From NCBI GenBank assembly GCA_023248635.1, contig JAHFED010000040.1, positions 1 through 59,234 on the forward strand: 59,234 bases of DNA, in the 5' to 3' direction. Under the pieces are notes generated by a model, which did no database searches, was not told the origin of the DNA, and saw only the letters and a list, made by a program, of their open reading frames with translations. The translations under genes and the position numbers were made by a program. This document shows positions 14,970 through 58,923 of this stretch, piece after piece. This DNA is from Myxococcales bacterium (lineage in GTDB: Bacteria > Myxococcota > UBA727 > VGSZ01). Position 1 is the first letter of the stretch, and every line of letters starts with the position of its first letter.

Positions 14970-15320
14970 TCAAGACGCCGGGGTGTCTTGAATGTCGACG
15001 GTGAGCAGCGTGTGCAGCCGCCGGAGCGACGTGATCGTCTTGCGCTGCCAGGCGATGGACTCCGCCCCCAGAATTCGCAGGGGAAGATCGAGCTTGCGCG
15101 CCGCCAGCACCAAGCGGGACAGGGCCGTGATCCCGGAGCTGTTCATGAAGTTCAACCCGCGGATGTCGACGACGTAGGTCGTCTTGCAGGCGATCATGGC
15201 GTCGTGGATGGGATTGAAGATGCGCTCATAGGCGCCGGGCGTGGCCAGGCGAAGTACCCCGGTCATCGTACAGCCGGCGGCGGTGTTTTCGATGCGGTGG
15301 TCGGCGTCCTCCATGTTCAT
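14970..15320 (-). CDS. STAS-domain anti-sigma-factor-antagonist-like protein (slr1659-type)
   Basis: A 116-aa single STAS domain. The conserved loop YVVDIRGLNFMNSSGITALS carries the Ser (in NSSG) that is phosphorylated in SpoIIAA/RsbV-type antagonists. The ATG at 15320 overlaps the stop of the HATPase gene (ATGA), so they are translationally coupled. In partner switching the unphosphorylated STAS protein binds a target and the HATPase kinase inactivates it. Here it is the last gene of the six-gene operon. The target is unknown. The pair resembles the Slr1658/Slr1659 pair of cyanobacteria (recalled, not searched). Confidence 0.85.
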   Translation of the reverse strand: MNMEDADHRIENTAAGCTMTGVLRLATPGAYERIFNPIHDAMIACKTTYVVDIRGLNFMNSSGITALSRLVLAARKLDLPLRILGAESIAWQRKTITSLRRLHTLLTVDIQDTPAS

Positions 15321-16524: not shown

Positions 16525-17618
16525 GGCGCTCCGTTGGCGACAAGTTTGTCGAGGTCGATGCGAAAACGACCACTGCGGGTCAGCCGGCCCAGCAGCACCT
16601 CCCGCGTCGCGTGCGCGACCAGGGCCGCCCCCAGGTGCACGTCACTTGAGAGTTGGGGATAGGAGCAGAGCTCGGAGTTGATCTTCGCGATCGACGCCCG
16701 CAACGGCCCCGAGACCTCATCGGCACCGCCCAGAAAACGATAGAAGACATTCAGGCGCTCCGACGGGGGCAGGGCAGCGGCTCCGGCGGCGTCGAGGTCT
16801 CCCATCAGGCCGTGGAGCAGCGGACGATCGGGTTCCAAGTCGAAGCGTTCGACGTCCAGGGTACCGCGGTCGTTGGTGTCCATCACGACGGGGATCCGCC
16901 GCTTCCGACACAGCTCCCGGATGCGGAGCTTCATCGGCAAGGTGTCGCACTCCTCGACCACGAGATCGAGGCCGTCGACGAAGGCGCCGGCGTTGGCTTC
17001 GGTGATGCCTTCGGGAAAGGTCAGCACGCGAACGTAGGGATCGATCTCGGCGACCTCTCTGCGCGTCACGTCCACTTTGGTGGCCCCGAGGTGGAGCACC
17101 GTCGTTCGCAACCGGTTGAGGTTCGAGAGCTCGATGGTGTCGAAATCCGCCACGCGCAGCTCGGCGCACAGACCCTCTTGCGCGAGCACCAGCGCTGAGG
17201 CGTGTCCCACCGACAACCCGACGACGCCGATGCGGCGGGTCAGCAGGGAGCGCTGCTCGGCCACGGTGATCTTGTCGCGGTTCCGGTTCGTTCGAACCTC
17301 GCGGAAGGCGTCGCGCGGCAGGACGTGAGCCAACGCCCGTCGCCAGGGAAAGAACACCCAGCTGCCATGAGCAAAGGAGCCGTGTCCTCCCAGCGCCGCA
17401 GCAATCGCCGCCCGGTGCTCGCTGCCACCACGCTCGGTGGATGGCTGCCGCACCCGGGCCCACTCCAGCAGCTGCGCATCGATGGTGTCCACAACCTTGA
17501 GCCGCGCGGTCTCAACGAGGGCCTCGAGCTCGGCGCGGTCGGCGTCGGCAAGTTGCAAGCAGAGGTGCTGGTCATCGCCAGACGCCAGCGCTTCTCGCAG
17601 CACGCTCAGGACGCTCAT
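16521..17618 (-). CDS. E1/ThiF-like adenylyltransferase in signalling operon
   Basis: A 365-aa protein. Residues 1-115 are an unrecognised N-terminal domain. The Rossmann ATP site follows (IGVVGLSVGHASALVLAQEG), then ADFDTIELSNLNR, LGATKVDVTRREVAEIDPYV and LVVEECDTLPMKLRIRELC. These are the ordered motifs of the ThiF/MoeB/E1 adenylation domain, with GLSVGH in place of GxGGxG. No CxxC zinc pairs are seen. A C-terminal catalytic Cys is not obvious, although ELCRKRR and ELCSYPQ contain Cys. Such domains adenylate a protein C-terminus or a carboxylate. It overlaps both neighbours by ATGA. It resembles the ThiF half of Rv1355c-like proteins (recalled). Confidence 0.8.
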   Translation of the reverse strand: MSVLSVLREALASGDDQHLCLQLADADRAELEALVETARLKVVDTIDAQLLEWARVRQPSTERGGSEHRAAIAAALGGHGSFAHGSWVFFPWRRALAHVLPRDAFREVRTNRNRDKITVAEQRSLLTRRIGVVGLSVGHASALVLAQEGLCAELRVADFDTIELSNLNRLRTTVLHLGATKVDVTRREVAEIDPYVRVLTFPEGITEANAGAFVDGLDLVVEECDTLPMKLRIRELCRKRRIPVVMDTNDRGTLDVERFDLEPDRPLLHGLMGDLDAAGAAALPPSERLNVFYRFLGGADEVSGPLRASIAKINSELCSYPQLSSDVHLGAALVAHATREVLLGRLTRSGRFRIDLDKLVANGAP

Positions 17619-18991
17619 GCCGTGGCCCGCACCAGCAAGAAGGTCACGTCGTCGTGGTAGACGCCGCCCGTGAAGGTCTGGAGGTCTTCGACCAGCCTCT
17701 CCTTGATGCGCGCTACGGGTTCGCTCGCATGCGCTTTCAAGAACTCCACCACCCGCCCCTCCTCGAACATCCCCTTCTTGTAGTCGCCGCCGGCTGCGGC
17801 TTCGGTGATGCCATCAGTGCTCAGCAGCAGCAGATCCCCGTCGCCCAAGTTTAGCATCTCTTCGCCGAAGTCCTTGAGGTCGAACTCGTTCAGCAGCCCC
17901 AGGCCATGAGGGACTTGCTCGACGTGCACGATGTCCACGTGTTTGGTCGCTGCCCGGTACACGTAGATGTCGTCGTGCATTCCTGAGAAGCGGAACTGAC
18001 GCGAGTTGCCCTGTCGGCACAGCGCGATGATGGTCATCGTTCGGTCGTCGCACAGGCGCTGCAGGTTCTCGTGCAGGATGGCGTTGGCGAGGTGATTCAG
18101 CTCGCCCGGCGTGATGTCGGCGCGGGTGTGGAGGATCGAGGTGATGATGCTCTGGGCCATCAGCATCACCAGCCCGCTCGACAAGCCGTGGCCGGTGACG
18201 TCGCCGAGCAGGATCCAGCTGTAGTCCCCGATCTCGTAGACGTCGTAGTAATCGCCGCCGACTTCGTCTGCGGGCTTCATGTATGCCGCCAGCTCAAGGC
18301 CGCTGAGCTTGGGATTCGAGGGCAGGATCTTCGTTTGGATGCGATGGGCCACCGACATCTCGGCCTGGAAGCGCGTCTGCTTCTCGGTGACGATCTCCAG
18401 CACCACCGCCGGCGCGAAGACCGAGAGCCCAAAGACGATGAGGATGGCGATGGTGAAGCCGATGGGGGCAAACCACTCCACCATGCGCAAGAAGGGGAAG
18501 TCGGCGGTGTGCACGACGAAGAACACGCTGCTCACCAAGAGCCCACGCATTGAAAACGACATGCTCGACAGCGGGATGCTCTGGAGCACTCTGGTCACGA
18601 CGAGAATCAGCGGGAAGCAGCCGCCGAAGGCCACCGGGATGGCGGCGACGGCGAAGCCCGCACCGGTGGTGTGCAGCACGGCAGCCAGCCCCAGGCTGAC
18701 GACGAAGACGGCTGCCATCGGCTTCCATTCGAAGCGCAGACCGAGCACGCGCGCCATGAGCTCCGCGAGTGCGCCGTTGATCAGCACGACGAAGGCGAAG
18801 CCCATCAGGATCTGGCCTTCGCCGGTGCGCAGCGCACCCTGGGCCATCAGCGCGATGAAGGTGCCAACCCAGAGGGCGGTCAGGCTTCGGTGCAGGCTGC
18901 TGCGCTGAATCCACCACTGGATGCCCGACAGCGCTGCGTTCACGAGCACGATGCCCGTGTACAAGACCAGAAGGTTCTCGAGTGTCCCCAC
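17615..18991 (-). CDS. Membrane-anchored SpoIIE-family PP2C phosphatase
   Basis: A 458-aa protein. The N-terminal 205 residues form about seven hydrophobic helices (VLYTGIVLVNAALSGIQWWI first), followed by a short coiled linker (VLEIVTEKQTRFQAEMSVAH). The PP2C domain then has DEVGGDYYDV, LLGDVTGHGLSSGLVM, LLLLSTDGITEA and HDDVTFLLV, all metal-binding aspartates in place. A GTG at 18991 with GGGAG upstream is chosen; the frame runs further up but into the cyclase gene. It is predicted to dephosphorylate the STAS protein in response to a membrane signal. It overlaps the ThiF-like gene by ATGA. Confidence 0.9.
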   Translation of the reverse strand: MGTLENLLVLYTGIVLVNAALSGIQWWIQRSSLHRSLTALWVGTFIALMAQGALRTGEGQILMGFAFVVLINGALAELMARVLGLRFEWKPMAAVFVVSLGLAAVLHTTGAGFAVAAIPVAFGGCFPLILVVTRVLQSIPLSSMSFSMRGLLVSSVFFVVHTADFPFLRMVEWFAPIGFTIAILIVFGLSVFAPAVVLEIVTEKQTRFQAEMSVAHRIQTKILPSNPKLSGLELAAYMKPADEVGGDYYDVYEIGDYSWILLGDVTGHGLSSGLVMLMAQSIITSILHTRADITPGELNHLANAILHENLQRLCDDRTMTIIALCRQGNSRQFRFSGMHDDIYVYRAATKHVDIVHVEQVPHGLGLLNEFDLKDFGEEMLNLGDGDLLLLSTDGITEAAAGGDYKKGMFEEGRVVEFLKAHASEPVARIKERLVEDLQTFTGGVYHDDVTFLLVRATA

Positions 18992-19038
18992 CAGCAGCTC
19001 CCGCCCGCCCCTGCAGATGCAGGCAAGGCGCCCGCACC

Positions 19039-20223
19039 CTACGAGATCGTCCGCGCACCCGCCAATTTCGTCGTCGTCGCTCGCTTGAACTCCGAGAGCC
19101 ACCGTGCGGCTGCCGGCGGCAGGGAGGTGAAGTGGACGCGGAAGGTGTCAGCCTCTGCGCTCACGACCTTGCCGTACCCCTCTCCCAGGCCGGCGTCGTC
19201 GAAGGTGAGCTTGAGGTTGGATCGCACAGCTGGCGGTTGGTCGAAACGAAACAGAGCCTCCTTGTCTCCCAGCGCGAGCAGCATCGCCGCCACGACCTCT
19301 CCGCCAGCATCTTTTCCATCGATCAGCGACATCCCGACCAGGGGTCCTTCCACGATTGGGGTGAGCTCTTCGTCGACGGTGGGCAGCATGCGACTGCCCA
19401 GGCCGGCGACGTCGTAGATGGTGACGGCATGCCTGACGCCCTTCGGATTCACTTTGAAGGTGCTGCGGGCGTGCAACTGCTCATCGAGATCGCCTGCAGT
19501 GCTCTCGCTGATCAGCACCTGCCCGCCGATGGTGTACGACTCGATGCGGCTGGTGAGGTTCACGGCCGAACCAACGAGACCGAACTTCGCCCGCCGCTCG
19601 GAGCCGACGTTGCCGACGACGACTTCGCCGGTGTGCAGACCGATGCCCATCTGGACCTGGGGCAAGCCCTCGGCCGCCAGCTGCTCGTTGACGCGCGTCA
19701 TGGCGAGCTGCATTTCCAAGGCGCACTGCACTGCGTGGGCAGCTGCGCGCGGGGCGACCAAGGGCGCGCCAAACACCGCGAGGATGGCGTCGCCGATGAA
19801 CTCGTTGATCCAGCCGCCGTGGCGCGCGATCACCTCGGCCATCTCGCCCAGATAGACGTTGAGGGTGCGCACGGTCTGCTCCGGCGTCAGCCGCTCGCAC
19901 ATCGGAGTGAACCCGCGGAGATCGCTCATCATGATGGTTACGCGTCGGCGCTCGCCCCCCAGAGCGAAGTTCTCGGGGCTGTCGATGAGCACGGCGGCGA
20001 CCTCATCGGTCATGTAGCGACCGAACACCTTTCGGAGCAGCCGGTTGCGCACGTCGAGGTCCCGCGCGAGCTCGGCGATCTCTGCGAGCTTCTGTTCGAG
20101 CGCGGCTTCGATGTCGTTGCTGTGCTCGAGGGTGATCTCGTGGATGGTCGTCAGGTCGGCGTAGTCTTGCTGGAGCGCTGTCAATTGACTGCTGAGGTCG
20201 GACGGATCGGTCGGGGTGCTCAC
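19039..20223 (-). CDS. Class III adenylate/guanylate cyclase, first gene of signalling operon
   Basis: A 394-aa soluble protein with a GTG start. Residues 1-70 are a coiled coil. The catalytic domain spans about 85-275, with metal aspartates in MSDLRGFT and FIGDAILAVFG and the transition-state pair in VGSAVNLTSRIESYT. The Lys in RRAKFGLVG suits a purine-specifying position; ATP or GTP cannot be decided. The last 100 residues (FRFDQPPAVRSNLKLTFDDA onward) look like a PilZ-like or other small sensor domain. The gene ends 47 bases before the phosphatase. All catalytic residues appear present. Confidence 0.9.
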   Translation of the reverse strand: MSTPTDPSDLSSQLTALQQDYADLTTIHEITLEHSNDIEAALEQKLAEIAELARDLDVRNRLLRKVFGRYMTDEVAAVLIDSPENFALGGERRRVTIMMSDLRGFTPMCERLTPEQTVRTLNVYLGEMAEVIARHGGWINEFIGDAILAVFGAPLVAPRAAAHAVQCALEMQLAMTRVNEQLAAEGLPQVQMGIGLHTGEVVVGNVGSERRAKFGLVGSAVNLTSRIESYTIGGQVLISESTAGDLDEQLHARSTFKVNPKGVRHAVTIYDVAGLGSRMLPTVDEELTPIVEGPLVGMSLIDGKDAGGEVVAAMLLALGDKEALFRFDQPPAVRSNLKLTFDDAGLGEGYGKVVSAEADTFRVHFTSLPPAAARWLSEFKRATTTKLAGARTIS

Positions 20224-36535: not shown

Positions 36536-36779
36536 CACTCACTCCACACGTCAAGACACGTCAGCGTCTTGAACATTCACCGGCGTCGCCTCACGGCGGC
36601 GCTGATCTCCCCCTGGGGATCGAGGGCAGCAGCTACCAGCCGTTCTCCGGCTTGACAAGGCGTGATCACGGGGAGGCCCGAGTCCGGTCTGGCCGTGCCG
36701 AGTGAGGCAGAAGCTCTCCGTCGCTGGGTCTGTCGAAAACGATCGAAACCACTTCGGCGCTGCACTACATTCCGAGCTG

Positions 36780-37625
36780 GTGACGACGTCGTCGAAAACC
36801 CTGCTGCTGGTGCCGGGCTCCGCTGAGGTGGCCCAAAGCCCCGTGGTGTTGAGCGTTCCCCACGCGGGGATCCTGGTGCCCGACATTGATGCGCCACTCC
36901 TGGCGCTGTCGGGCCGGGGGCTGCTCAAAGACGCCGACCTGCACGTGGACCGGCTGGCGCAACGCGTTCCCGCGCTCGGCGTTCCCGTCGTCGTCGCCCA
37001 GATCAGCCGCTACGTGCTCGACGTGAACCGCGCCCCCGACGACGTCGACCGCGAGGTCTGCCCCGAGATCGAGCGCCCGGCGCGTCCCTCGGCCCGCGGC
37101 TTGTGCTGGCGCACCACCACCGACGGCGCCCCCGTGCTGGTGCGACCCCTCACCCTGCTCGAGCTGCGCTCGCGCCTGCAACGCATCCACGAGCCCTACC
37201 ACCAGACCCTGGCCGAGCTGCTCGCCGAGCGGCGCCAACGCTTCGGCTACGCCGTGCTCCTCGACGTGCATTCCATGCCTTCGCTGGGACGTCCCGGGCA
37301 CACAGACCCCGGAGCCCGCCGCGCCGACGTCGTCCCTGGCGACCTGCGGGGCACTTCGTGCTCGCCCTTGTTGTCCAAGCTCGTCGCCGACCACTTTGCA
37401 GCTGCGGGACTCAGCGTGCGCGCCAACGATCCCTACATGGGCGGCTATGTCACCCGCCAACACGGTCGCCCCGCGCGCGGCGTGCACGCGCTGCAAATCG
37501 AGCTCAACCGCGACCTGTACATGGATGAGAACTCCTTTGCCCTCGTCGACGACAAAGCCGCCGCCGTCACCGCTTTGCTCACGGGCCTGGTCGAGAAGGT
37601 GAAAGGCCTGCAGCTTCCCTCTTGA
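36780..37625 (+). CDS. N-formylglutamate amidohydrolase family protein
   Basis: A 281-aa protein. VVLSVPHAGILVPDIDAPLL is the N-terminal motif of the family. DADLHVDRL, QISRYVLDVNRAPDD, YAVLLDVHSMPSLGRPGHTD and the C-terminal RGVHALQIELNRDLYM are likely metal and substrate residues of the zinc-dependent fold. Members hydrolyse N-formylglutamate in histidine degradation, but many act elsewhere; no hut gene is near. GTG at 36780 is preferred; the frame also has an upstream GTG at 36702. Divergent from rpmJ. Confidence 0.8.
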   Translation: MTTSSKTLLLVPGSAEVAQSPVVLSVPHAGILVPDIDAPLLALSGRGLLKDADLHVDRLAQRVPALGVPVVVAQISRYVLDVNRAPDDVDREVCPEIERPARPSARGLCWRTTTDGAPVLVRPLTLLELRSRLQRIHEPYHQTLAELLAERRQRFGYAVLLDVHSMPSLGRPGHTDPGARRADVVPGDLRGTSCSPLLSKLVADHFAAAGLSVRANDPYMGGYVTRQHGRPARGVHALQIELNRDLYMDENSFALVDDKAAAVTALLTGLVEKVKGLQLPS

Positions 37626-39062: not shown

Positions 39063-40018
39063 GCGTCGCGACGCTGCTCTCTGGACCCAACCCGGTCAGC
39101 GGTGCGCAGCAGCCCGGCGCCGATCTCACCGTGCTCATCCCCGCCTTCAACGAAGAAGAAGGGCTGCCGCCGACGCTTCAATCCCTGCTCAAAGAGCCTC
39201 GCCTCGCGGGAGCCCGCGTCATCGTCATCGACGACGGATCCACCGACAAGACCGCCGAAGTCGCCCGCCGCTTCGAACGCGTCGAGGTGCTGCGCCACAA
39301 GAACAACCAAGGCTACGGCGCCGGCATCAAGAGCGGCACCCGGCACGCAACGACCCGCTACGTCGCCTGGTTCGACGCCGACGGCCAACACCGCACGGAA
39401 GATCTGGTCTCTCTGTACGAGACCGCCGTCCGCGAGCACTACGACGCCGTCTTTGGCAAACGCACCGCCGACTCCGCCTTCGTGCGCAGCCGCGTGCTCG
39501 GCAAGAAAGTGCTCTCGATCGTCGCCAACTCCGTCGCCGAGCAAAAAATCCCCGATCTCAATTGCGGTCTGCGGGTCTTTCGCCGCGAGCTCTTGGCTGG
39601 CTATCTGCCGCTGCTGCCCGAAGGTTTCTCGGCGTCGACGACGACGACGCTGCTCTTCATCAAGCGCAACCGCCACTTCAGCTTCGAGCCCATCACGGTG
39701 TCGCCGCGCGTGGGCACCAGCACCGTGAAGCAGGTGCGCGATGGGTTGCGGACCCTGCACTTGATGATGCGCATTTTGTTCTTGTTTCAGGCGTTCAAGA
39801 CCTTCTCCATCGTCGCCGGCCTCTTCTTCGTCACCGGCCTCGCCTATGGCAGCACCATCGCCATCTTGCGGGGCCAGGGCTTTCCGGTGCTGGCCGAGCT
39901 CTTGTGCATCGTCGGCGTCATCGTGTTTTGCTTCGGCATCGTCAGCGATCAAATCAGCGCCCTGCGCATCGATCTGCTCGAGCGCAACGACGCCCACAGC
40001 CGGGTGCGCGACCCCTAA
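39059..40018 (+). CDS. Family 2 glycosyltransferase with C-terminal membrane helices
   Basis: A 319-aa protein. The GT-A fold shows LTVLIPAFNEEEGLPPTLQS, VIVIDDGSTDKTAEVARRFE and WFDADGQHRTEDLV (the metal-binding acidic motif). CGLRVFRREL lies further on. Two C-terminal helices (FKTFSIVAGLFFVTGLAYGS and LAELLCIVGVIVFCFGIVSD) resemble those of polyprenyl-phosphate glycosyltransferases. It probably transfers a sugar to a lipid carrier. ATGA overlap upstream; TAATG overlap with the AsnB gene downstream. Confidence 0.85.
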   Translation: MSVATLLSGPNPVSGAQQPGADLTVLIPAFNEEEGLPPTLQSLLKEPRLAGARVIVIDDGSTDKTAEVARRFERVEVLRHKNNQGYGAGIKSGTRHATTRYVAWFDADGQHRTEDLVSLYETAVREHYDAVFGKRTADSAFVRSRVLGKKVLSIVANSVAEQKIPDLNCGLRVFRRELLAGYLPLLPEGFSASTTTTLLFIKRNRHFSFEPITVSPRVGTSTVKQVRDGLRTLHLMMRILFLFQAFKTFSIVAGLFFVTGLAYGSTIAILRGQGFPVLAELLCIVGVIVFCFGIVSDQISALRIDLLERNDAHSRVRDP

Positions 40019-41904
40019 TGTGCGGCATCGTCGGCGTCGTCGACCTGCGGGGGGACCGACGCCTGCCCGATCCTGCTTGCTTCGATCGCATGGTCGACAG
40101 CCTGGCCCGCCGCGGGCCCGATGGACGCGGCGTGTGGCGCGCCGACGACGTCCTTTTGGGACACCGCCGTCTCGCCATCCTCGATCCCTCAGCCGCCGCC
40201 GACCAACCCATGCACAGGGACGGCGCCGTCGTCGTCTTCAACGGCGAGATCTACAATTTTCGAGCGCTGCGGTCGGAGCTCGAGCGCCTGGGCCACACCT
40301 TTTCGACCAGCGGCGACACCGAAGTGCTCCTGGCTGCCTGGAAAAGCTGGGGCGAGCGCTGCGTCGAACGCCTGAACGGGATCTTTGCCTTCGTCGTCGT
40401 TGACGGCCCGCGGGTTTTTCTCGCCCGCGACCACATCGGCATCAAGCCTCTCTTTTATCGGCTGCACGAGGGCCTGCTCTGGTTCGGCTCCGAGCTCAAG
40501 AGCATCCTCGCCGACCCGCGCGTGCCCCGCCGGCCCTCGCCGGAGGCCATCGACTGCTTTCTCACCCAAGCCTGGGTGCCCTCGCCGCTCACGCCCTTTG
40601 AAGGCATCGAGCAGTTGCCCCCAGCATCGACCCTGTCGCTGACCCTGGAGTCGTCGTCGTTGTCGCGGTCCAAGATCTATTGGCGACCGGCCACGGGCGA
40701 GCGCCGCATCTCGCTCAAAGACGCCGTCGTCGAATTGGGAGCCCGGCTCGACGACGCCGTCACCGCGCAGATGGTCAGCGATGTGCCGCTGGGGGCCTTT
40801 CTCTCTGGAGGCCTGGATTCCGCCAGCGTCGTCGCCGCCATGCGCAAGCGCGGTCCGGTGCGCAGCTTCTCGATGGGTTTTGCCCAAGGGAGCTTCGACG
40901 AATCCAGCGACGCCGCCCACACCGCGCACATCTTGGGCAGCGACCACCACAAAGACGTGGTCGATCTCGAGCTCGAGCGCTGCATCCTCAACGTCGCCGA
41001 CACCAACGACGACCTCCTTGCTGACGCCTCGCTGCTCGCTGTCGACCGCCTCTGCGCCTTGACCCGTCGACACGTCACCGTGGCCCTCTCTGGCGACGGC
41101 GCCGACGAAATTCTGGCGGGTTATCCGACCTACGCGGCGACCCATGTGGCCCAGGCTTGGCGACAGGTGCCTTCGCCGCTGCGCGCCCTCGTCAACGCGG
41201 GTGCGGCCCACCTGCCAGTCTCTGTCGAGCGCTACAACTTGCGCGACTTCGCTTTGCGCTTCTTGAGCGGGGCCGAGCGCGGACCGGGGAACGATTTTGC
41301 ATCGTGGCGCATCTACTTCGACGACGACGTCCGCCGCCGTTTGCTGCGTCCCGCTTTCGCCGCCGAGGGTCGGGCGATCGCTCGCTACGCGGCCGCGGTG
41401 AACGACGCGCCGGCGGAGACGCTGTTGAAGAAGCTGCTGGTCGCCGACCTCACGCACTATTTGCCTGGCGATATGTTGGTGAAGGTGGATCGCGCGAGCA
41501 TGCGCCACGGCCTCGAGGTGCGCGTTCCTTTCCTCGACCCGCGCTTCGTCGACTTCGCTCTGTCCTTGCCCTCGCACTTGCTGCTCTCGCCCACGGGCAC
41601 CACCAAGCGCGTGCTGCGCGCCCATGTGGAACAGCAGGTCTCGCGCCGCATCGGTCGCGGCAAGAAGCGCGGCTTCAATGTGCCAGTGTCTGCGGCCCTG
41701 CGCGGTCCCCTGGTGCCCCTCTTTCTCGACGCCATCACCGCCGAACCCTTCCGCAGCGAAGGCCCCATCGACGTCGACGTGCTCTTGCTCTTGCTCGAAG
41801 AGCACCGCAGCGGTCGCCACGATTGGGGCTACCCGCTCTATGCGGCTTTGGTCTTGGCTTTGTGGTGGCAGCGCTTCGTCGCCAACGTGCCCCTGGTGGG
41901 CTGA
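40018..41904 (+). CDS. asnB: Asparagine synthase (glutamine-hydrolysing) family protein
   Basis: A 628-aa protein. Cys2 (MCGIVGVVD) is the amidotransferase nucleophile; ARRGPDGRGVWRADDVLLGH and VFNGEIYNFR complete the glutaminase domain (to about 220). The synthetase domain has the PP-loop FLSGGLDSASVVAAMRKRG near 262 and later LTHYLPGDMLVKVDRASMRH and EVRVPFLDPRFV. In polysaccharide loci such enzymes amidate uronic acids; free-asparagine synthesis is the alternative. The ATG shares one base with the upstream stop. Its end abuts a convergent gene. Confidence 0.9.
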   Translation: MCGIVGVVDLRGDRRLPDPACFDRMVDSLARRGPDGRGVWRADDVLLGHRRLAILDPSAAADQPMHRDGAVVVFNGEIYNFRALRSELERLGHTFSTSGDTEVLLAAWKSWGERCVERLNGIFAFVVVDGPRVFLARDHIGIKPLFYRLHEGLLWFGSELKSILADPRVPRRPSPEAIDCFLTQAWVPSPLTPFEGIEQLPPASTLSLTLESSSLSRSKIYWRPATGERRISLKDAVVELGARLDDAVTAQMVSDVPLGAFLSGGLDSASVVAAMRKRGPVRSFSMGFAQGSFDESSDAAHTAHILGSDHHKDVVDLELERCILNVADTNDDLLADASLLAVDRLCALTRRHVTVALSGDGADEILAGYPTYAATHVAQAWRQVPSPLRALVNAGAAHLPVSVERYNLRDFALRFLSGAERGPGNDFASWRIYFDDDVRRRLLRPAFAAEGRAIARYAAAVNDAPAETLLKKLLVADLTHYLPGDMLVKVDRASMRHGLEVRVPFLDPRFVDFALSLPSHLLLSPTGTTKRVLRAHVEQQVSRRIGRGKKRGFNVPVSAALRGPLVPLFLDAITAEPFRSEGPIDVDVLLLLLEEHRSGRHDWGYPLYAALVLALWWQRFVANVPLVG

Positions 41905-44900
41905 CTACTTCGGGGGAAGAGGGGCGCAGACCTTGGCGCCACCTCGAGAAACGCAGCTGAGCCCCAAAGAGCATTCGTCGTCGGCGACGCAGGCGCGCAA
42001 GCACACCTCGGTGGCCCAGCTGGGTTCGAGCACGCACCGCGCGTCGTCGTCGCAGGCATGGTCGGGATCGCAGGCCGACGTACACAGAGCGTTGCCCGGC
42101 GCAAAGCCCTGGCAGGTCAGCGTCGGCGCGCACTCCTCGTCGTGCACGCAACTGAGGCCGGCGCCGGTCACGTGGGGAGGTGTCGGCGTCGAACAACGGC
42201 GGTGGACATCGAGGGGCAAGGTCGGCGGGTGCAACATCGTGGCCCCAAAGCGGGATACCGACAGGTCGTAGGCGGCGGCTTCGTGGCTGGCGTCGCTCAA
42301 GACCAAGCGACGTCGGTCGCCCTGGTGCTGCAAGGCCACGGGCACATGGGCGACGTCGACGACGCGGGCTTTTTTTCCCGGCACGCGCGCGAGGCCGACG
42401 TAGGCGATGGTCGAGGCCCGCTGCTCGAGCTCGTCTTCGAAGGTGATCCAATTGCCGCGGTTCCAGATGAGCGGGACCTCGCGCTGGTCTTTGGTCGTGT
42501 ATTTCTCCCAGGTCTGCAGATGGTGCGGATGGTAGCTGGCGACGACGGTGGCGCCGGCTTCGGCCGCGTCTGTGGCCAGGCTGCGCAAGCGCTCATCGGG
42601 AAGCACGCGACGCTCGATGCCCCCCGAAGGCAGAAAGACGATGGCGTCGACGGCGGCGTCGTTGGCCAGCCTGCGCACCTCGCTGAGGACTTCGTCGCGT
42701 TGGGTCGTGCAGTTGAGCACGCCTTCTTGTTCGTCGGGCTTCTTGTTGTTGAGCCACTCGGTGCAGGCGAGCCAGGCGACGTTCAGGCCCTTCACCTGGG
42801 TCACGACCGACCAGGGGTCTTTGGGCGTGCGACGGGTGCCGGTGTGGGGCAAGCCGGCGGCCTCGAGGACGTCGAGGGTGCGGACCACGCCCCGGGGTCC
42901 GCGGTCGAGAGCGTGGTTGTTCGCGGTCCCGGTGACGTCGATGCCCAGCTTCTTGAGCTCCGTCGCCAGATCGGGGTGCATGTTGAGCCCCCCCTTCTTG
43001 CCCGAGGTGTAGACGGCGTCGTCGAAGGTGCGGCCGGGATCGGGACGGGTCTGGCCGTCGGCGTCATCGCAACAGCCGAGGGTGCCCTCGACGTTCACCC
43101 AGGTCGCATCGGCGGCGGCGAGCATCGGCTTCACTTGCCCCCACAAAGAGTCGTAGCCGTCGGCGAAGGCTTGCTCTTGCAGGGGCTGGTGCAGCGTGAC
43201 GTCGTTCATCAAGGCGATGGTGGCTGTGGGTGCTGTGGTGCAGGCGTCGGCGAAGACGAGGTCGCTGCCTCGATCACGAGCGCTGCGCGGCGCGGCACTT
43301 CTGAGCGGCTCGATCTGAAAAGCAGGGTCCTTCTTCGCCTTCGTCGCCTTCGCCGCTTTGGCGCGATCGACGGGAATCTCGCGCACGATCCTGTTGGTGA
43401 GCGTGACCATCCTTTGGCCGTCGTAGAAGACCTCGCGCAGGCGAATGCGCACGGCGGTGATGGGCTGACCGGTCCAGCGGGGCCCGACGTCGGCCTGGGC
43501 CCGCGGCTGGTGGTGCATGTGGGCGGGTGGCGAGGGGATCCACCACAGCGGCGCGCGACCGCCATACTTGTTCAACGTCGCCGCACTCGCCTGCAGCATG
43601 CGGTCGAGTCGCCGGGCCTTGGTCTCGTCGAGCCCGCTCTTGCGGCCCGCCTGCATGCGTTGCACGGCCTTGGGGTCGGCGGCCTGCAATCTTTTCCACG
43701 TCGCGTACGACGACGCCGAACCGAAGGTGCCCGTCAGCGTCGGCGCGTCGGCGGCATAAGCGATGCGCGCTTGGATGAAGGGCAGATCGAAGGGCGCGAG
43801 ATCGTGGGGCGAGAGCTGCTTCACGCTGCCGTCTTTGACGACGACTTCGAGGTCGTAGACGCGTGAGAAGCGCGTGTCCCACCAGCCCAGGGTCTGGGGC
43901 TCGAGGGTCCAATGGGACAAGGCGACAGCGACGACGCCGGCAGCCCTCAACCACCGCGGCCACTGCGCGAAGACCTCGGCTCCGTGGCGCCAGAAGAAGG
44001 CGGCGAAGGCTGTGTCTACGACCATCCATTTCCAAAAGAGGATGCCGCTCGAGAGGAAAATGCCGACGTGCATCCCCACAAAGAGCAAGAGGAGCAGCGG
44101 CGTGAGCCGACGGTGCACCACGAGCAACGCGCCGCTGAATTCGATCGCCAAGGTTGCGACCGCGAGGATGGCCGACAGCGAGCCCAGCGTCCGGGCCACC
44201 CCGACGGCGGTGGGCTCGGACATGCCGTTGTGAAAGCCCGTGGCCCAGCACGACATGAAGAGATTGCCGAGGTCGTTTTCGCGCAGCCAGCTGGTGAGCT
44301 CAGGACCTATCTGGAGCTTGTTGACGCCGGGCCAGACGTAGGCACCGCCGACGATGGCCAAGCAGAGAAAGAGCAAAGCGTGGGTCTTGGCAGCGGTCAG
44401 CCGCCGCACCAGCAGAAAGCCGGCGAACGCGATCTGCACGTCGAGGAACACACGTCGCTCGGTCCAGTTAAAACCCTCGATGGGCGTGTCTTCCTGGGCT
44501 GCGAAGAGCAAGCCCACGGCCGTGAGCAGAGGGAGAAAGGCCGGCCGCCCCAAGGCCAACGCAGCCAACACCAGCGCCAGGGTGCGGTCGGCGCCGTAGC
44601 TGTGGTCGGTCACCAGATTGTAGGGCGCACCAACCACCAGCCAGGCTTGGGCGACGACGACAGCGCCGAGGACCCAACGCAGCGGACGACCGAGCTCGAG
44701 ATCGCTCCAACGCCAGCGAAAGCATGCGATCGCCAAGGCGGCGAGGGCGGCGAAGGTAAGGACGATGTGACGCTGGTGGAGGGCTTCGAAGAGAATGAAG
44801 CTGCCGTTGAAGGTGTGCGGGGGCACGCGCGTGATGGCGCCCCAGACCTCCCGGCGCGGCAGCATGAAGGCCGCATAGACCAGCAACACCTGCAAGGCCG

Positions 44901-44940
44901 GCAACGCGAGCAGCGCCCGCACCCGCTCTTTCACGTTCAC
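41905..44940 (-). CDS. Fusion of polytopic membrane domain, CapA-family domain and Cys-rich tail
   Basis: A 1011-aa protein with a GTG start. Residues 1-330 hold about eight to ten membrane helices (LQVLLVYAAFMLPRREVWGA onward), perhaps HTTM-like. A soluble segment follows. Residues about 570-870 are a CapA/PGA_cap metallophosphoesterase-type domain: ATWVNVEGTLG, GTANNHALDRGPRGVVRTLD, VVASYHPHHLQTWEKY. The usual GD of the first motif is ND here. Residues 920-1011 contain over ten Cys (CVHDEECAPTLTCQGFAPGN onward). It overlaps the upstream GT-C-like gene by GTGA. Role in capsule or polymer assembly is inferred. Confidence 0.75.
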   Translation of the reverse strand: MNVKERVRALLALPALQVLLVYAAFMLPRREVWGAITRVPPHTFNGSFILFEALHQRHIVLTFAALAALAIACFRWRWSDLELGRPLRWVLGAVVVAQAWLVVGAPYNLVTDHSYGADRTLALVLAALALGRPAFLPLLTAVGLLFAAQEDTPIEGFNWTERRVFLDVQIAFAGFLLVRRLTAAKTHALLFLCLAIVGGAYVWPGVNKLQIGPELTSWLRENDLGNLFMSCWATGFHNGMSEPTAVGVARTLGSLSAILAVATLAIEFSGALLVVHRRLTPLLLLLFVGMHVGIFLSSGILFWKWMVVDTAFAAFFWRHGAEVFAQWPRWLRAAGVVAVALSHWTLEPQTLGWWDTRFSRVYDLEVVVKDGSVKQLSPHDLAPFDLPFIQARIAYAADAPTLTGTFGSASSYATWKRLQAADPKAVQRMQAGRKSGLDETKARRLDRMLQASAATLNKYGGRAPLWWIPSPPAHMHHQPRAQADVGPRWTGQPITAVRIRLREVFYDGQRMVTLTNRIVREIPVDRAKAAKATKAKKDPAFQIEPLRSAAPRSARDRGSDLVFADACTTAPTATIALMNDVTLHQPLQEQAFADGYDSLWGQVKPMLAAADATWVNVEGTLGCCDDADGQTRPDPGRTFDDAVYTSGKKGGLNMHPDLATELKKLGIDVTGTANNHALDRGPRGVVRTLDVLEAAGLPHTGTRRTPKDPWSVVTQVKGLNVAWLACTEWLNNKKPDEQEGVLNCTTQRDEVLSEVRRLANDAAVDAIVFLPSGGIERRVLPDERLRSLATDAAEAGATVVASYHPHHLQTWEKYTTKDQREVPLIWNRGNWITFEDELEQRASTIAYVGLARVPGKKARVVDVAHVPVALQHQGDRRRLVLSDASHEAAAYDLSVSRFGATMLHPPTLPLDVHRRCSTPTPPHVTGAGLSCVHDEECAPTLTCQGFAPGNALCTSACDPDHACDDDARCVLEPSWATEVCLRACVADDECSLGLSCVSRGGAKVCAPLPPK

Positions 44941-46919
44941 AGCTCGCTCTCGCGTTCATCACCCGCAGGCGGACCCGAAGGAGCTCCGTCGTCGTCGTCG
45001 TCGGCGGCGCCTTCTGACGGTGCAGGAGATGCGGGCAGCTGCGCGGGTGCGACAGCGGCCTCGCGCAGGGCCTCTTCGAGCTTGGCCACGCTGAGCACGC
45101 GGGTTCCGCGCGAGGTGAACACCACAGCTCGCGCTGGCGGCGATGCGAGAGCAAAGCCCTTGGCCTTGTTCTTCTTGAACAGGGGAGCGAGGTCGTTTTT
45201 CACCGGCTGAAACAAGCGGCTGTCGAGGGCGTCGAAGGTCTGCTTGCGCACGATGAAATAATCGACGTGCTCGGCGTGGGCGAAGTCGACGACGGCTTGC
45301 AGATTGTCGCTGTACAGGGCCTCGTACATGCGGCGAATGCGGCGCTCGCACTCATCATAGTAGCCGCGTCGGAAGGGGTGCGAGAGGTTCTTGGTCACGT
45401 AGGACTGGTGCCAAGCAAAGAGCGGGGTCTTGTCAGTGTAGCCAAACTCGCCGGCGAAGATCTTGTCGACCGGTTGTTTCTGCACCCAGCGGTAGAGCTT
45501 GGCGTTGGACGCATAGGGGCTGTAGTTGGCCGGTCCCGCTTCGTTGCCGTCGCCAAAAAAGAGCACAGTGGGAACGACCGCGACGACGACGGCGACCAGG
45601 GTGGCGATGGCCGTCGAGCGGATGAGGTTGCGCGCCAGGCACCAGGTCAGCAGCGGGACGCCGGCGTAGAAGCAGTAGGCCCACACGTGCTGGAGCGGCC
45701 GATAGGGCAGGTAGAGCTTGAACGCGAGCGCGCGGGCCAGAAAGTAGGCCGCCAGCGCGCCGACAAAGAGAGCGGGGATCTGCCAGGGGAAGGCGTCGAC
45801 GAAGCTCTGTCCGCGTCGTCGGGCCCGCCACGACAACACCGGCACGGCTGCGGTGCCGAGCAAGATGCCACCGAAGACGAGGGCGTAGTTCTGCTTCTCG
45901 AGGGCTTGTCCCGCGCTGGGCAGGGGTACCTTGCCGACCCGGCGGAAGGCGCGTTCGACGTTGCGTTCGATCTCGAGGGCGGCGGGCTTCAGCGGGGCTT
46001 CGGAGACGCGTCCACCGGCCTGCCACGCCGGCATCTGCATCGCTTCTTCCAGGGTCACGATGTCGCCCCACCAGGCGGGAGCGCGGATCTCCTGGAACTT
46101 GCCGAAAGCGATGATGAGCAGTCCGGCGGCGAACATGCCGGCCATGCGGCGCAGGCGCGGTGTCATGGGTCCAGCGACGACGGTGTAGACGCCGTAGGCG
46201 AAGCCGCAGGGGATGACCACCGAGGGGTAGAGGGCCGACTGGACGACGAGAATCACCAGTACGAGGCGGTGGGCGCCGGCCATGAACGCCCCCAGAAAGG
46301 CGAGGGTCAAGATGGGCCCGAAGGAGCGCGCGTACCCCCCAGCGATGATGGCCGAGAAGTCGACGTTGCGCAGCAGCAGGAAGGCCGCCGCGAGCCCGAT
46401 GAAGGCGTTGGATCGACGGGCCACTGCAGCCCAGATCACGATGTGGGTGCCGACGTAGGCGACGAGGTTGAGGAATTTTGCGGCGATCAGCGGCGACATC
46501 AACGTCGACAGCGAGGCCATCATCACCCACCAACCGGGGGGCGCGTGCATGACGAAGGCGTAGTCGGTGTGCAGCTGGCCCGGCGGAAAGGCGCCGGTCT
46601 TGTTGTAGCGCCAGTAGTGCCACACGGCTTGGGGCTGGTCGCCGTCGGCGGAGAATTCCGAGAACATCCCGCCGTAGCGCAGGGAGATGAGGTGGACGAG
46701 ATAGGCCACGAAGGCGAGGACGCCGACGACGAAAAGCACGCGCGCGAGCCGGCCGTCGGGCCAGAAACGAGAGCGCAGCGAGGGCTCGGGTTGGGCGGCC
46801 AGCATCGACGGCATGTGCTGCACCGGCGGCGCTGTGGGTTCCGGGGGGACTGCGCTCGGCGCCAGCTCCGACGAGGGCCCGGTCTCGTCGGGAAGGGGGG
46901 CGCTCGTCGACGACGACAT
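44937..46919 (-). CDS. GT-C-like polytopic membrane protein, paralogue A
   Basis: A 660-aa protein. A 45-residue Pro-rich N-terminus is followed by about ten helices, then a soluble C-terminal domain and an acidic tail. Shared with the gene at 57202: WRYNKTGAFPPGQLHTDY, GGYARSFGPILTLAFLGAF, FLARALAFKLYLPYRPLQHV and HPFRRGYYDECE. The architecture suits lipid-linked sugar transferases (GT-C fold) or polymer ligases. Catalytic residues were not assigned. It is coupled to the CapA fusion gene by GTGA. Divergent from the GT-C-like gene at 47028. Confidence 0.75.
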   Translation of the reverse strand: MSSSTSAPLPDETGPSSELAPSAVPPEPTAPPVQHMPSMLAAQPEPSLRSRFWPDGRLARVLFVVGVLAFVAYLVHLISLRYGGMFSEFSADGDQPQAVWHYWRYNKTGAFPPGQLHTDYAFVMHAPPGWWVMMASLSTLMSPLIAAKFLNLVAYVGTHIVIWAAVARRSNAFIGLAAAFLLLRNVDFSAIIAGGYARSFGPILTLAFLGAFMAGAHRLVLVILVVQSALYPSVVIPCGFAYGVYTVVAGPMTPRLRRMAGMFAAGLLIIAFGKFQEIRAPAWWGDIVTLEEAMQMPAWQAGGRVSEAPLKPAALEIERNVERAFRRVGKVPLPSAGQALEKQNYALVFGGILLGTAAVPVLSWRARRRGQSFVDAFPWQIPALFVGALAAYFLARALAFKLYLPYRPLQHVWAYCFYAGVPLLTWCLARNLIRSTAIATLVAVVVAVVPTVLFFGDGNEAGPANYSPYASNAKLYRWVQKQPVDKIFAGEFGYTDKTPLFAWHQSYVTKNLSHPFRRGYYDECERRIRRMYEALYSDNLQAVVDFAHAEHVDYFIVRKQTFDALDSRLFQPVKNDLAPLFKKNKAKGFALASPPARAVVFTSRGTRVLSVAKLEEALREAAVAPAQLPASPAPSEGAADDDDDGAPSGPPAGDERESEL

Positions 46920-54394: not shown

Positions 54395-55491
54395 GCTTCT
54401 TCCACTTCGATCTTCGAGCCGCCGGCGCTAGCCGAACGACTGGCAGCCTCGAGCACGCGCACGATGGCGAAACCGTCGGCTCCCGAGGCCACCGCCGTTG
54501 GTCCACCGCGCAACTCGGAGGCGATGTCGGCGAGCTCGGTGCTAATTGCTTCGGCCAAGGAGATGTTGGGCGCGCGCATGTCGCCCTTGCGATAGCTGAC
54601 CAAGAGGCGGCGGCGGGCTTCGTCGTCATCGGGGATCTGGAAGGACACGCCGTGGTCGTAGATCTTGATCTTCTCCGCGGGCTCGAGATCGTCGTAGATG
54701 ATCGACTGCTTCTCGCCGGCGACGATCATGCGCCGCACCTTGACCGGGCTCAGCCACGACAAGTGCAAGTGCGCGGTGACGTCGTCGCCGTAGTCCAGGT
54801 GCAGGTAGGCGACGTCGGCCATCGCTGCGTCGGTGCCGGCTTTGGGCGTGTGGCAGCTGCCCATGGTGCGCACCGACTTGGGACCGCGGCCCATGAGGTG
54901 GTGCAAGATGGCCAGATCGTGGGGCGCGAGATCCCAGACGACGTCGACGTCGGGTTGAAAGAGCCCCAGGTTGATGCGCACGCTGTCGATGTAGAGCAAC
55001 TTGCCCAAGGCCCCGCTGTCGAGGTGGCGCTTCAGCTCGCGCACGGCTCCGGTGTAGAGGAAGGTGTGGTCGACGAAGACCTTGCGCTTCACCTTCACGC
55101 TCAGTTCCAAGAGAGCGCGCGCCTCCGCCGTCGTCTTCGCCAGCGGCTTTTCGACGAGGACGTTGGCCCCCGCGTTCAGCGCGATTTCGGCGAGGGACGC
55201 GTGCGACGACACCGGCGTCGCCACGCACACCAGATCGATGGGCCGGTCCTTGAGCGCCTCGGCCAAAGAAGAGAAGCGACCCGCCGCCGGATACAGGCTG
55301 CCCACCTTGTCCCGGCGGCGTTCGTCGATGTCGACGAGGGCCGTCAGATCGAAGTCGTCGGAGGCCGAGAGGTTGCGAGCGAGATTGGGACCCCAATAGC
55401 CAAGGCCCACGACGGCGGCGGAGTACTTTCGGCGCGCCAGCGTCGGAAGCAATGAACTCTTCGCCTTGCTGGCAGCGGGTGAATTGCGCAT
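54391..55491 (-). CDS. Gfo/Idh/MocA-family sugar nucleotide oxidoreductase (WlbA/WbpB-like)
   Basis: A 366-aa NAD(P)-dependent enzyme. YSAAVVGLGYWGPNLARNLS is the nucleotide site, NVLVEKPLAKTTAEARALLE the EKP motif and VVWDLAPHDLAILHHLMG the catalytic His region. This subgroup includes WlbA/WbpB, which oxidises C3 of UDP-GlcNAc-uronic acid before transamination. It is the first gene of the operon and lies 55 bases from the divergent CapA gene, so both promoters must overlap in this gap. The ATG at 55491 is chosen. Confidence 0.85.
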   Translation of the reverse strand: MRNSPAASKAKSSLLPTLARRKYSAAVVGLGYWGPNLARNLSASDDFDLTALVDIDERRRDKVGSLYPAAGRFSSLAEALKDRPIDLVCVATPVSSHASLAEIALNAGANVLVEKPLAKTTAEARALLELSVKVKRKVFVDHTFLYTGAVRELKRHLDSGALGKLLYIDSVRINLGLFQPDVDVVWDLAPHDLAILHHLMGRGPKSVRTMGSCHTPKAGTDAAMADVAYLHLDYGDDVTAHLHLSWLSPVKVRRMIVAGEKQSIIYDDLEPAEKIKIYDHGVSFQIPDDDEARRRLLVSYRKGDMRAPNISLAEAISTELADIASELRGGPTAVASGADGFAIVRVLEAASRSASAGGSKIEVEEA

Positions 55492-55546
55492 GGGGCCGGC
55501 TAGCAGGCTCTTCCTGGCTTGGGCAGAACCTGTTCTGGTCGTCGTC

Positions 55547-57205
55547 ATGTCTCGCTTTCTTGTTGCCTGCGGGCTCTTGGTGCTGGTGGGGTGCCGGGTG
55601 CCCGCCGAGCCCACGGGGCCTGCCGCGGTGTTGGCCGCCGGCAAGAGCGAGGTCTCGTTGCTCTTTGTCGGCGACACGTCGGTGGCTCGCGGCATCGGCA
55701 CCGTCATCGACGACGCCAACGATCCCGCGCGGCCCTTTGCCCGCATGCGCGAGACCCTCGACGCCCACGACCTGGTCTTTGCCAATCTCGAGTGCGTGCT
55801 CTCGGACTCGAGCAGCGAAGAAGCGAATAAGACCTATCGCATCCGCGCCCCCGAAAAAAACGGCAGCGCCTTGCACGACGTCGGCATCGACGTCGTCAGC
55901 GTGGCCAACAACCACGCCATGGACTTCGGTCTCCAGGGTCTGACCCACACCCTCGCGGCCCTGGAGAAAGAGGGCGTCGTGGCGGTCGGTGCCCAGCGCG
56001 AGCGCGGTTGGGCACAGCCAGTGACCATCATGCAGGTCGGCGTCTTCTCGGTGGGCTTCCTCGCCTACAACGCCCATGGCGACGAGTACGAGCACGAATC
56101 TTATCGGCCCACAGCGGCGCGCTACGACATCGACGACGTCATCGACGACATCCGCCGGGCCCGTCCCCGGGTCGATTTTCTCGTCGTCAGCGTGCATGGC
56201 GGCGTCGAGCTCTCGCACGAGCTGGCTCCGTGGCAAGAGCGCGACGCCAAGGCTGCCATCGACGCCGGCGCCGACTTGTGGATCGGGCACCACCCCCATG
56301 TGGTGCAACCCTGGACCGTCTACCGGGGCAAGGTCATCGCCTGGTCGCTCGGGGACTTCGTCTTCGACAAAGAGCCCCAATGGCTCATCGCCCGCAACAG
56401 CCCGCGCTTCTTTCTGCAACTGAACCTGCGCAAAGACGCCGAAGGCAAAATCGTCGCCGACCCCACCTTGCTCGGCGGCGCGCAAGACGGCTCGACCTGG
56501 CAACCGATGCTGGCGCCGGGCTCCTTCGACGTCGACAGCTTTGAACAGCGGTCGCCTCCGCCGACTTTGAGAGATCTGCTGCCCGCGGCCCGGGTCGAGC
56601 GTGTGCGTGGCGACATCGTGACGTTGTGCGATCGCTGGGAAACACGACGCATTCCTCTGGGCGTGCATGCCTTTCGCTGGCTCGCGCCGCGCTTCGCCTG
56701 CGCCGACGCCGACGCCGAGAAACTGCGGCCCTGGGAGACGGTCGCCAAGAGCGCGGAGCTCTTTGAGGGCGCGTTAAAATATGGAATTTGGGCGCACCCA
56801 AATTCCAATGGAGTACTGCGTCTTCGTTTTACAAATGTCGAACTGGGATCGCGATTGGAGGGCTTCGCCGGCTTCCCCGATTGGCAGATCGCCCTGCGCG
56901 ACAAGGCAAGAAAACGGCACAAGGACGAGCCATCGGCGGCGACCGTGCGGGTGCTGGTTGCGCAAGAGCGGGGAGCGGGGCTGAAGCTGAGCACGTGGAT
57001 CCACGGGCCTTCCATCGCTGACGTGCCACAGGTCGTCGGCGGTCTCGATGGGGTGACCACCGTCCCCTGCAAGCCCGGCACCACGCCCCTGCGGCTCGAC
57101 ACCAGCGATCTCCAGGGAACGCGCCACGACGTTGTCGTCGAGATCTCCGGCGGCAGCGGCGACGTCGAAGGCCGCTTTCTCTTCGATCTGGCGGTGGTGC
57201 CATGA
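55547..57205 (+). CDS. CapA-family lipoprotein
   Basis: A 552-aa protein starting MSRFLVACGLLVLVGCRVPA with lipobox LVGC. Residues about 40-340 are the CapA/PGA_cap domain: LLFVGDTSVARGIGT, FANLECVLS, VVSVANNHAMDFGLQG, VVSVHGGVE, WIGHHPHVVQPW and WSLGDFVFD. All expected metal-site residues are in place. The C-terminal 200 residues form a beta-rich domain ending GRFLFDLAVVP. CapA proteins act in polyglutamate or polysaccharide capsule formation. The stop overlaps the start of a GT-C-like gene (ATGA). A hairpin lies within the gene at 56782. Confidence 0.85.
   Translation: MSRFLVACGLLVLVGCRVPAEPTGPAAVLAAGKSEVSLLFVGDTSVARGIGTVIDDANDPARPFARMRETLDAHDLVFANLECVLSDSSSEEANKTYRIRAPEKNGSALHDVGIDVVSVANNHAMDFGLQGLTHTLAALEKEGVVAVGAQRERGWAQPVTIMQVGVFSVGFLAYNAHGDEYEHESYRPTAARYDIDDVIDDIRRARPRVDFLVVSVHGGVELSHELAPWQERDAKAAIDAGADLWIGHHPHVVQPWTVYRGKVIAWSLGDFVFDKEPQWLIARNSPRFFLQLNLRKDAEGKIVADPTLLGGAQDGSTWQPMLAPGSFDVDSFEQRSPPPTLRDLLPAARVERVRGDIVTLCDRWETRRIPLGVHAFRWLAPRFACADADAEKLRPWETVAKSAELFEGALKYGIWAHPNSNGVLRLRFTNVELGSRLEGFAGFPDWQIALRDKARKRHKDEPSAATVRVLVAQERGAGLKLSTWIHGPSIADVPQVVGGLDGVTTVPCKPGTTPLRLDTSDLQGTRHDVVVEISGGSGDVEGRFLFDLAVVP
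56782..56807. repeat. Hairpin inside the CapA-family gene
   Basis: TGGAATTTGGG (56782-56792) and CCCAAATTCCA (56797-56807) form an exact 11-bp stem with loop CGCA. The 60 bases around it are markedly AT-richer than the gene. It encodes part of KYGIWAHPNSNG, so the frame is intact. It may affect translation or mark a recombination patch. Confidence 0.7.
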
Positions 57206-58923
57206 GTGGCTTGGTCGGGCAGACTCTGAAAGACGAAATTCATGAACTTCCGGTGTGGCAGAAGTCATTCGCTCTAGCCTTGGTCAGCTACATCGTGAGC
57301 GTATCGGTGCAACGCTTTGCTTTCTGCCTCACACCCTGGGTGGCGGAGACCGACTGGAAGCAATGGATCTGGCAGTACTGGCGCTACCACGTCGACGGCG
57401 CCTTCCCGCCCGGCAACGTGATTACCGACTACACCTTCAACGCCCAGCCGCCGCTCTACCACCTGGCGATGTCGACGCTCTCGCGCGTGTTCCGACCGGT
57501 CATCGCCGCCGACATCGTCAGCTGGAGTGCCTGGGTGCTGGCGCTGTGGGCCTGCGTGGTCGCCGTTCGTCGACGCAGCACCGTCGTCGTTGGCCTCATG
57601 GTCGCCCTGCTCTTTGTGCGTGACGATCTGCTGCACCGCTTCTCCATGGGTGGCTACCCGCGCAGCTTCGGTCCGACCTTGACCCTGCTCTTTTTGGCGG
57701 CGTGGTTGAATGGACGGCACCGGCTGGTGCTGTTGGTGCTGGTGGCGGCGTCGGCGGTGTACCCGAGCGTCTGCGTGCCCTGCGGTCTGGCCTACGGCTT
57801 GTGGACAGCGGCGACGGCACCGCGCACCTCGATCAAAGCCTGGCTGCGCAAAAACGTCGAAGTCGTCGTCGCGGGCGTCGCCGTCGGCGTCTTGGCCCAA
57901 CTGCAGAGCCTGACGGCACCCGCGTGGTGGGGACCGGTGGTGTGGGCCAGCGAGGTGGGGCCCGAGCTCACGGCCGCCGGTCGCTCGGCGTGGATGCCGC
58001 TCGGACCTTTTTGGCCCAAGGTCGGCAGCTACTTCTTCGAGCCCTGGAATTTCACCGGCGCTTTTTGGAGCGACAAGCAGATCCCCTGGCCCCAGGAAGT
58101 CGCCCACGGCGCCGGGCTGCTCGCCGCCCTCGTCGCCGCCGTCGTCACCGTCGTCAAAGGCAAGCGCGCGCCGGTGCCCTGGCAGTTGCTGCTGCTGCTG
58201 CTGTGCGCGGTGTTCAGCTTCTTTCTCGCGCGCGTGTTGGCCTTCAAGCTCTACCTGCCCCACCGCATGGTGCAGCACACCTTGCCGCCCATCCTCTTCG
58301 TGACGCTGGGTCTCTTGTTCTTCACGACGGGGATGACGCTCTTTCGCGACAAGACCCGAGCCATGCTCTTCGTCTTCGCCGGCGTGGTCGTGCCGCAGTT
58401 TGTGCTCTCGGGGGATGGCCTAGGGTCCACGCGCATGCGCTCCTACGCGGAACGGGCCGATCTTTACACCTGGATACAGAACAACACCAAAATCACCGAT
58501 CAATTCGGCGGTTATTACAGCGTCCTCGACGAAATTCCCTTCTTCGCCATCCGGCCGGTCTATGTGAACTGGAAGATGGCTCACCCCTTCCGCAAGGGCT
58601 ATTTCGCCGAGATCGAAAGCCGCACCATCGAGATGTACTCGGCGTTTTACTGCACCGACCTGAAAGAACTGCGGGCGTTCAGCAAGAAGAATGACGTCGC
58701 CTGGTTCGTCGTCAACGATACGATGTTTGATCGATTGGAGCAGGGCGATAGCCAGCTCTTCGAGCCTACGCGCAGCACCATCCTCAAGACGGTGTTCGAG
58801 CCCCGGCGGGCGACGGGATTCGCTCTGCGCGATCCGCCGGCGGAAATCGTGGCTTTCCGATTGGGCAACATTCGCGTCTTGTCGATGGCCCAGCTCGACA
58901 CGTTGCTCGGTCCGGCGGACTGA
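57202..58923 (+). CDS. GT-C-like polytopic membrane protein, paralogue B
   Basis: A 573-aa protein with about ten helices and a soluble C-terminal domain. It shares with the protein at 44937 the segments WRYHVDGAFPPGNVITDY, GGYPRSFGPTLTLLFLAAW, FLARVLAFKLYLPHRMVQHT and HPFRKGYFAEIE, plus a similar C-terminus (FALRDPPAEIVAF). A lipid-linked transferase or polymer ligase role is inferred. It is coupled to the CapA gene by ATGA. Its final codon and stop (GAC TGA) coincide with the start of the 86-bp repeat. Confidence 0.75.
   Translation: MSGLVGQTLKDEIHELPVWQKSFALALVSYIVSVSVQRFAFCLTPWVAETDWKQWIWQYWRYHVDGAFPPGNVITDYTFNAQPPLYHLAMSTLSRVFRPVIAADIVSWSAWVLALWACVVAVRRRSTVVVGLMVALLFVRDDLLHRFSMGGYPRSFGPTLTLLFLAAWLNGRHRLVLLVLVAASAVYPSVCVPCGLAYGLWTAATAPRTSIKAWLRKNVEVVVAGVAVGVLAQLQSLTAPAWWGPVVWASEVGPELTAAGRSAWMPLGPFWPKVGSYFFEPWNFTGAFWSDKQIPWPQEVAHGAGLLAALVAAVVTVVKGKRAPVPWQLLLLLLCAVFSFFLARVLAFKLYLPHRMVQHTLPPILFVTLGLLFFTTGMTLFRDKTRAMLFVFAGVVVPQFVLSGDGLGSTRMRSYAERADLYTWIQNNTKITDQFGGYYSVLDEIPFFAIRPVYVNWKMAHPFRKGYFAEIESRTIEMYSAFYCTDLKELRAFSKKNDVAWFVVNDTMFDRLEQGDSQLFEPTRSTILKTVFEPRRATGFALRDPPAEIVAFRLGNIRVLSMAQLDTLLGPAD

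Follow-up and report, generated by a model that had tools for sequence, protein, structure and literature searches.

The window, by which we mean the whole 59,234-nucleotide stretch of DNA that was analysed, carries on its reverse strand one reading frame in which a polytopic membrane module is followed by a soluble region, a linker, a CapA/PGA_cap region and a cysteine-rich tail (Table 1). The original prediction of a three-part fusion in a single 1011-residue frame was borne out by the open reading frame (41905-44940), the PGA_cap match and the tail. Its counts of 8 to 10 helices ahead of CapA and of more than ten cysteines in the tail also agree with ours, as hydropathy confines the hydrophobic segments to residues 6 to 303, with about 9 to 11 helices, and 13 cysteines lie between residues 916 and 1005. 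The start of the gene shares the four bases GTGA with the end of the upstream gene (44937-46919).

Table 1. Features of the fusion gene and its neighbours, in window positions
Feature	Position	Strand	Evidence or remark
Whole fusion gene, 1011 aa, GTG start	41905..44940	-	Single ORF, uniform GC3
Polytopic membrane module, remote HTTM relative, residues 1-347	43900..44940	-	Hydropathy, profile comparison
Lys208 of the YxxxGxxK motif	44317..44319	-	Invariant in 5/5 members, aligned with the HTTM lysine
Soluble region of the standalone family, residues 348-524	43369..43899	-	Alignments with relatives
Linker, residues 525-565, Lys/Ala-rich at its start	43246..43368	-	Position relative to standalone relatives
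CapA/PGA_cap region, residues 566-916 (Pfam part 575-832 = 42445-43218)	42193..43245	-	
N579-D580, first metal motif, Gly to Asn with Asp kept	43201..43206	-	Comparison cores
Ser772 replacing the metal-binding His (MslH His259 by alignment)	42625..42627	-	Codon TCG
Cys-rich tail, residues 917-1011, three C-x5-C-x5-C-x(8-10)-C repeats	41905..42192	-	
Upstream 660-aa polytopic protein, 4-bp overlap with fusion start	44937..46919	-	No Pfam family above cut-off
Convergent asparagine synthase-like gene (ORF 39562-41904; start from MCGIVG)	40018..41904	+	Pfam
Second PGA_cap protein of the locus, metal His intact	55466..57205	+	Alignment

The locus contains a GT2 gene, the asparagine synthase gene, a hexapeptide transferase, two DegT aminotransferases and a Gfo/Idh oxidoreductase, and it is from these neighbours that any link of the fusion to surface-glycan synthesis is drawn. 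Upstream of the glycan genes (36702-37625) lies a gene for an N-formylglutamate amidohydrolase family protein (E 1.2e-68). The second CapA gene shares 4 bp with a gene for a 573-residue protein that has weak DUF6798 and Dpy19 matches, the pair spanning positions 55466-58923. Farther away, at 15317-20223 on the reverse strand, HATPase-like/DUF6272, GNAT-like, ThiF, SpoIIE phosphatase and guanylate cyclase genes perhaps form a signalling operon.

Residues 1 to 527 correspond to a protein that stands alone elsewhere, in two Bacteroidota genomes and three viral contigs, and these relatives terminate near residue 524 to 527 of the fusion. A genome scan returned a 549-residue Bacteroidota relative (L027; 28% over 443 columns, residues 88 to 524, E 5e-52), and a two-row profile returned a second (L061, E 5.5e-57), with matches in 2 of 395 genomes including the source of L027. 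Viral contigs L064, L065 and L066 each carry a further relative, those of L064 and L065 being nearly identical. In the window's phylum the membrane part was found in 1 of 195 genomes, the window's own. A five-row profile gave matches in 4 of 189 genomes of that phylum, three of them partial, and in 2 of 345 genomes of a second Bacteroidota draw, one being a short match at E 1e-3. The membrane part matched no Pfam or NCBIfam model, its family profile matched none of the solved structures searched, and tblastn against plasmid and phage records gave no match. A structure model of the membrane part built from two sequences had a pLDDT of 40 and was discarded.

The gene context of the family varies. 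The L064 relative (region L064:5464-7463) comes straight after an asparagine synthase-like gene and has an overlap with a DCC1-like one (E 7.3e-14), and that of L066 precedes genes for a polytopic protein and a glycosyltransferase. The L027 relative is followed by a Cupin_8 protein gene, and the relative on L061/L062 has an acyl-CoA dehydrogenase and an ornithine cyclodeaminase-like protein as neighbours. Of these contexts, only those of the window, L064 and L066 are surface-glycan gene sets. In L066 the polytopic neighbour also has a weak DUF6798 match. The upstream protein of the window (44937-46919) was compared with this L066 neighbour by BLASTP and hhalign; the scores were no better than those of controls, and we therefore claim no synteny.

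Profile comparison relates the membrane part remotely to HTTM, the family to which the membrane domain of vitamin K gamma-carboxylase (GGCX) belongs, as a divergent branch that has no Pfam model. A profile of five family members aligned to 50 HTTM proteins of the window's phylum with a probability of 95.7 and a score of 75, and these values held (95.5 and 74) when the closest HTTM protein was left out and 49 remained. The window protein alone scored 53 to 56 against HTTM, and the top score among 38 polytopic control proteins was 24 to 30. These controls were ORFs taken from 40 stretches, each 250 residues or longer and with a minimum of five predicted helices. The family model also directly retrieved two HTTM proteins that Pfam recognises (G034:C430, genome G034, E 1.6e-8; G024:C52, genome G024, E 2.5e-6), which make up two of the three partial matches of the five-row profile in the window's phylum. 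Against 35 canonical HTTM proteins alone the match was weak (probability 10.6, score 34), which counts against the HTTM reading, and none of the 5 family members matched the Pfam HTTM model (PF05090) with the E limit raised to 10. The similarity spans about 110 to 180 columns around the Lys and His motifs and does not fully cover the domain; within it, the Y-x3-G-x2-K motif and the next helix, which bears the His, align between the family and HTTM.

The fusion resembles HTTM/GGCX proteins in this remote similarity, which takes in the helix with YxxxGxxK and the His motif after it, and in having a soluble part after the helices. It differs from them in having no Pfam match and in being joined to CapA and a cysteine-rich tail. 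HTTM genes often adjoin DCC1, and the DCC1-like neighbour of the L064 relative is a further likeness at the level of the family. To our knowledge, the function of most bacterial HTTM proteins is not known. An HTTM gene occurs in a linaridin cluster, where its role is called unclear (PMC9927463); this line was the one relevant item that paper searches on bacterial HTTM function or HTTM/CapA fusions returned, which does not prove absence from print. In human GGCX, Lys218 is described as the base that takes a proton from vitamin K hydroquinone (PMC12589487). We infer that Lys208, which is aligned with the HTTM lysine, may be the counterpart of Lys218; the alignment does not reliably reach the Glu-binding residues of GGCX (N158, N159, H160 and Y395). 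The remote HTTM kinship lends some support to the original suggestion of lipid-side chemistry.

The CapA domain is recognised by Pfam PGA_cap (PF09587) at residues 575 to 832 (E 3.7e-43; 148.3 bits, cut-off 27), but its metal-site residues are incomplete. We compared it with 54 distinct PGA_cap cores (56 rows minus two repeats, forming 17 clusters below 60% identity), which are the best-scoring loci plus the second CapA protein of the window and are thereby biased towards canonical sequences. The Gly that precedes the first metal Asp, present in 54/54 cores, is Asn579 in the fusion, so that the reading of ND instead of GD was correct, with the ligand Asp itself retained. The altered CapA motif of the original proposal is real, and a second change that it did not include is the bigger one: the His at the position of Ser772 is likewise invariant in 54/54 cores. 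Residue 773 is Gly in the fusion and Trp in 49 of the 54. Kept are D580, N616, E618, N674, N675, H676, D679 and H806.

Among solved structures, the best match by sequence was the lasso peptide Trp epimerase MslH (PDB 8gq9 and 8itg; E 1.7e-7). Foldseek with a model of the CapA domain, built from four sequences (pLDDT 53, pTM 0.62), also placed MslH first (E 4.2e-12), ahead of 5'-nucleotidases. The fusion shares with MslH the Asp, Glu, Asn, His/Asp dyad and last His, but it has Ser772 where MslH has His259, and it is membrane-bound. Its score with the NCBIfam MslH model (NF038314) was 40.5 bits against an equivalog score of 700, and no lasso peptide cluster was seen among the annotated neighbours of the gene. 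In MslH, Glu44, Asn87, His259 and His261 bind calcium, and mutants of Glu44 and Asn87 were dead, whereas those of His259 and His261 were diminished (PMC10406935). The nearest CapA relative of the fusion is L003, from genome G019 of the same phylum, with 36% identity over residues 559 to 917 and shared cysteines; unlike the fusion, it is a standalone protein of 425 residues with a lipoprotein-like N-terminus (judged by eye) and an intact metal site. A viral contig (L190:1794-4018) carries tandem CapA genes, the first of which is joined to a CHAP domain (PGA_cap E 1.6e-41, CHAP E 1.3e-10).

The 13 cysteines at the C-terminus are spaced by 14, 5, 5, 9, 3, 5, 5, 10, 3, 5, 5 and 8 and make up 12% of the tail, compared with 0.9% of the remaining protein. 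The tail is taken to be of the disulfide type. The Dickkopf_N model (PF04706) scored 15.9 bits in the tail, below its cut-off of 25, and a search of the genome itself for copies of the tail gave two weak matches alone (E 0.03 to 0.05).

The combination of an HTTM-like part with CapA was seen once, in a single genome among 195 from the phylum. A congener (G002) encodes an 875-residue HTTM-CotH protein (L183:3588-6215, forward strand, G002:C1; HTTM at 11 to 246, E 1e-8, and CotH at 412 to 680, E 6e-30). Here too an HTTM module is followed by a further domain in one chain, but a CotH kinase fold stands in the place of CapA and the HTTM part is recognisable by Pfam. Extra domains behind HTTM are therefore not unique to the fusion gene, and exported domains in this position recur in the genus of the window.

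We weighed several explanations of these features. It is very improbable that two separate genes were joined by an assembly or sequencing error, even though each of the five relatives of the membrane part is a protein of its own, the fusion was seen in a single one of the 195 genomes of its phylum and the sequence comes from a draft assembly in 135 contigs. Homologues that are always split had been named as grounds for such a join, and for these five relatives this is literally what we found. However, one frame and one codon signature run from end to end: GC3 is 0.78 to 0.93 and the highest of the codon positions in 17 of 17 segments of at most 60 codons, both junctions included. An erroneous merger of two complete genes should have left a signal peptide, but no signal peptide or lipobox was seen in the linker (residues 525 to 565), and there is no hydrophobic segment past residue 303. 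The high GC3 along the whole frame and the signal-free linker make a join unlikely, and the junction is internal to a 59-kb contig. These sequence features argue for a genuine single gene that is lineage specific, and its product appears to be a real, if rare, protein. It is also unlikely, though less so than a join, that the CapA domain still works as a metal enzyme, either a hydrolase or an MslH-like epimerase, with a remodelled site in which Asn579 or Ser772 provides a new ligand or specificity. The kept residues D580, N616, E618, N675, H676, D679 and H806 are consistent with such an enzyme, and Ser772 may not kill activity, since the H259A mutant of MslH is described as retaining reduced activity (PMC10406935). 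Against this, two positions invariant in 54/54 cores have been altered together and the common Trp at 773 has been lost as well. The altered metal-site residues, together with an epimerase as the closest solved relative, make a working phosphoesterase doubtful and weaken the periplasmic phosphoesterase-like step of the original prediction.

The HTTM-like part may instead be a mere anchor or export device that replaces the lipid anchor of CapA proteins, with the function carried by CapA or the tail. This is quite possible, and we consider it nearly as likely as an enzymatic role of the membrane part. In its favour, the nearest CapA relative, L003, is standalone with a lipoprotein-like N-terminus, the cysteine-rich tail suggests surface placement, and the HTTM-CotH protein is laid out likewise, with an exported domain unrelated to CapA. 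In contrast, Lys208 and the His/Phe/Trp motif are invariant in the 4/4 family members beside the window, none of which has a CapA domain, suggesting that a function of the membrane part itself has been kept. We tentatively favour, as a reading that is itself open to doubt, an HTTM-like membrane enzyme with a periplasmic, metal-altered CapA domain that binds substrate in a surface-glycan locus. The soluble parts of the fusion are probably periplasmic, as no helix follows residue 347 and they are rich in cysteine. For the mechanism of this membrane enzyme, we infer that the CapA part would bind a surface glycan or peptide intermediate, no longer hydrolysing phosphoesters, and would hold the bound substrate over the membrane domain. 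The membrane domain would bind quinol and use Lys208 as the base, as GGCX does with Lys218, so that it may run a quinol-linked base reaction on the substrate presented by CapA, and the cysteine-rich tail would be a stable surface or binding module. A bolder form is a long shot: a quinol-driven modification enzyme built on GGCX lines, with the retired CapA domain as an exosite from which a surface polymer, glutamyl- or glycan-linked, would reach the active site in the membrane, as the cell-surface counterpart of vitamin K carboxylation.

What is new here is the HTTM kinship of the family represented by residues 1 to 527, the loss of Gly and His from the CapA metal site, and the rarity of the fusion. 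If the anchor reading alone were true, the fusion would amount to a minor oddity in the shuffling of domains. That CapA has lost a metal His while the remaining ligands stay would allow a clear distinction between an enzyme and a binding domain. For the family, the comparisons describe a divergent HTTM branch without a Pfam model that occurs in surface-glycan gene sets, in the window and in viral contigs, and is here wired to a CapA fold; its presence in such sets and in a single chain with that fold points to action on the extracytoplasmic side.
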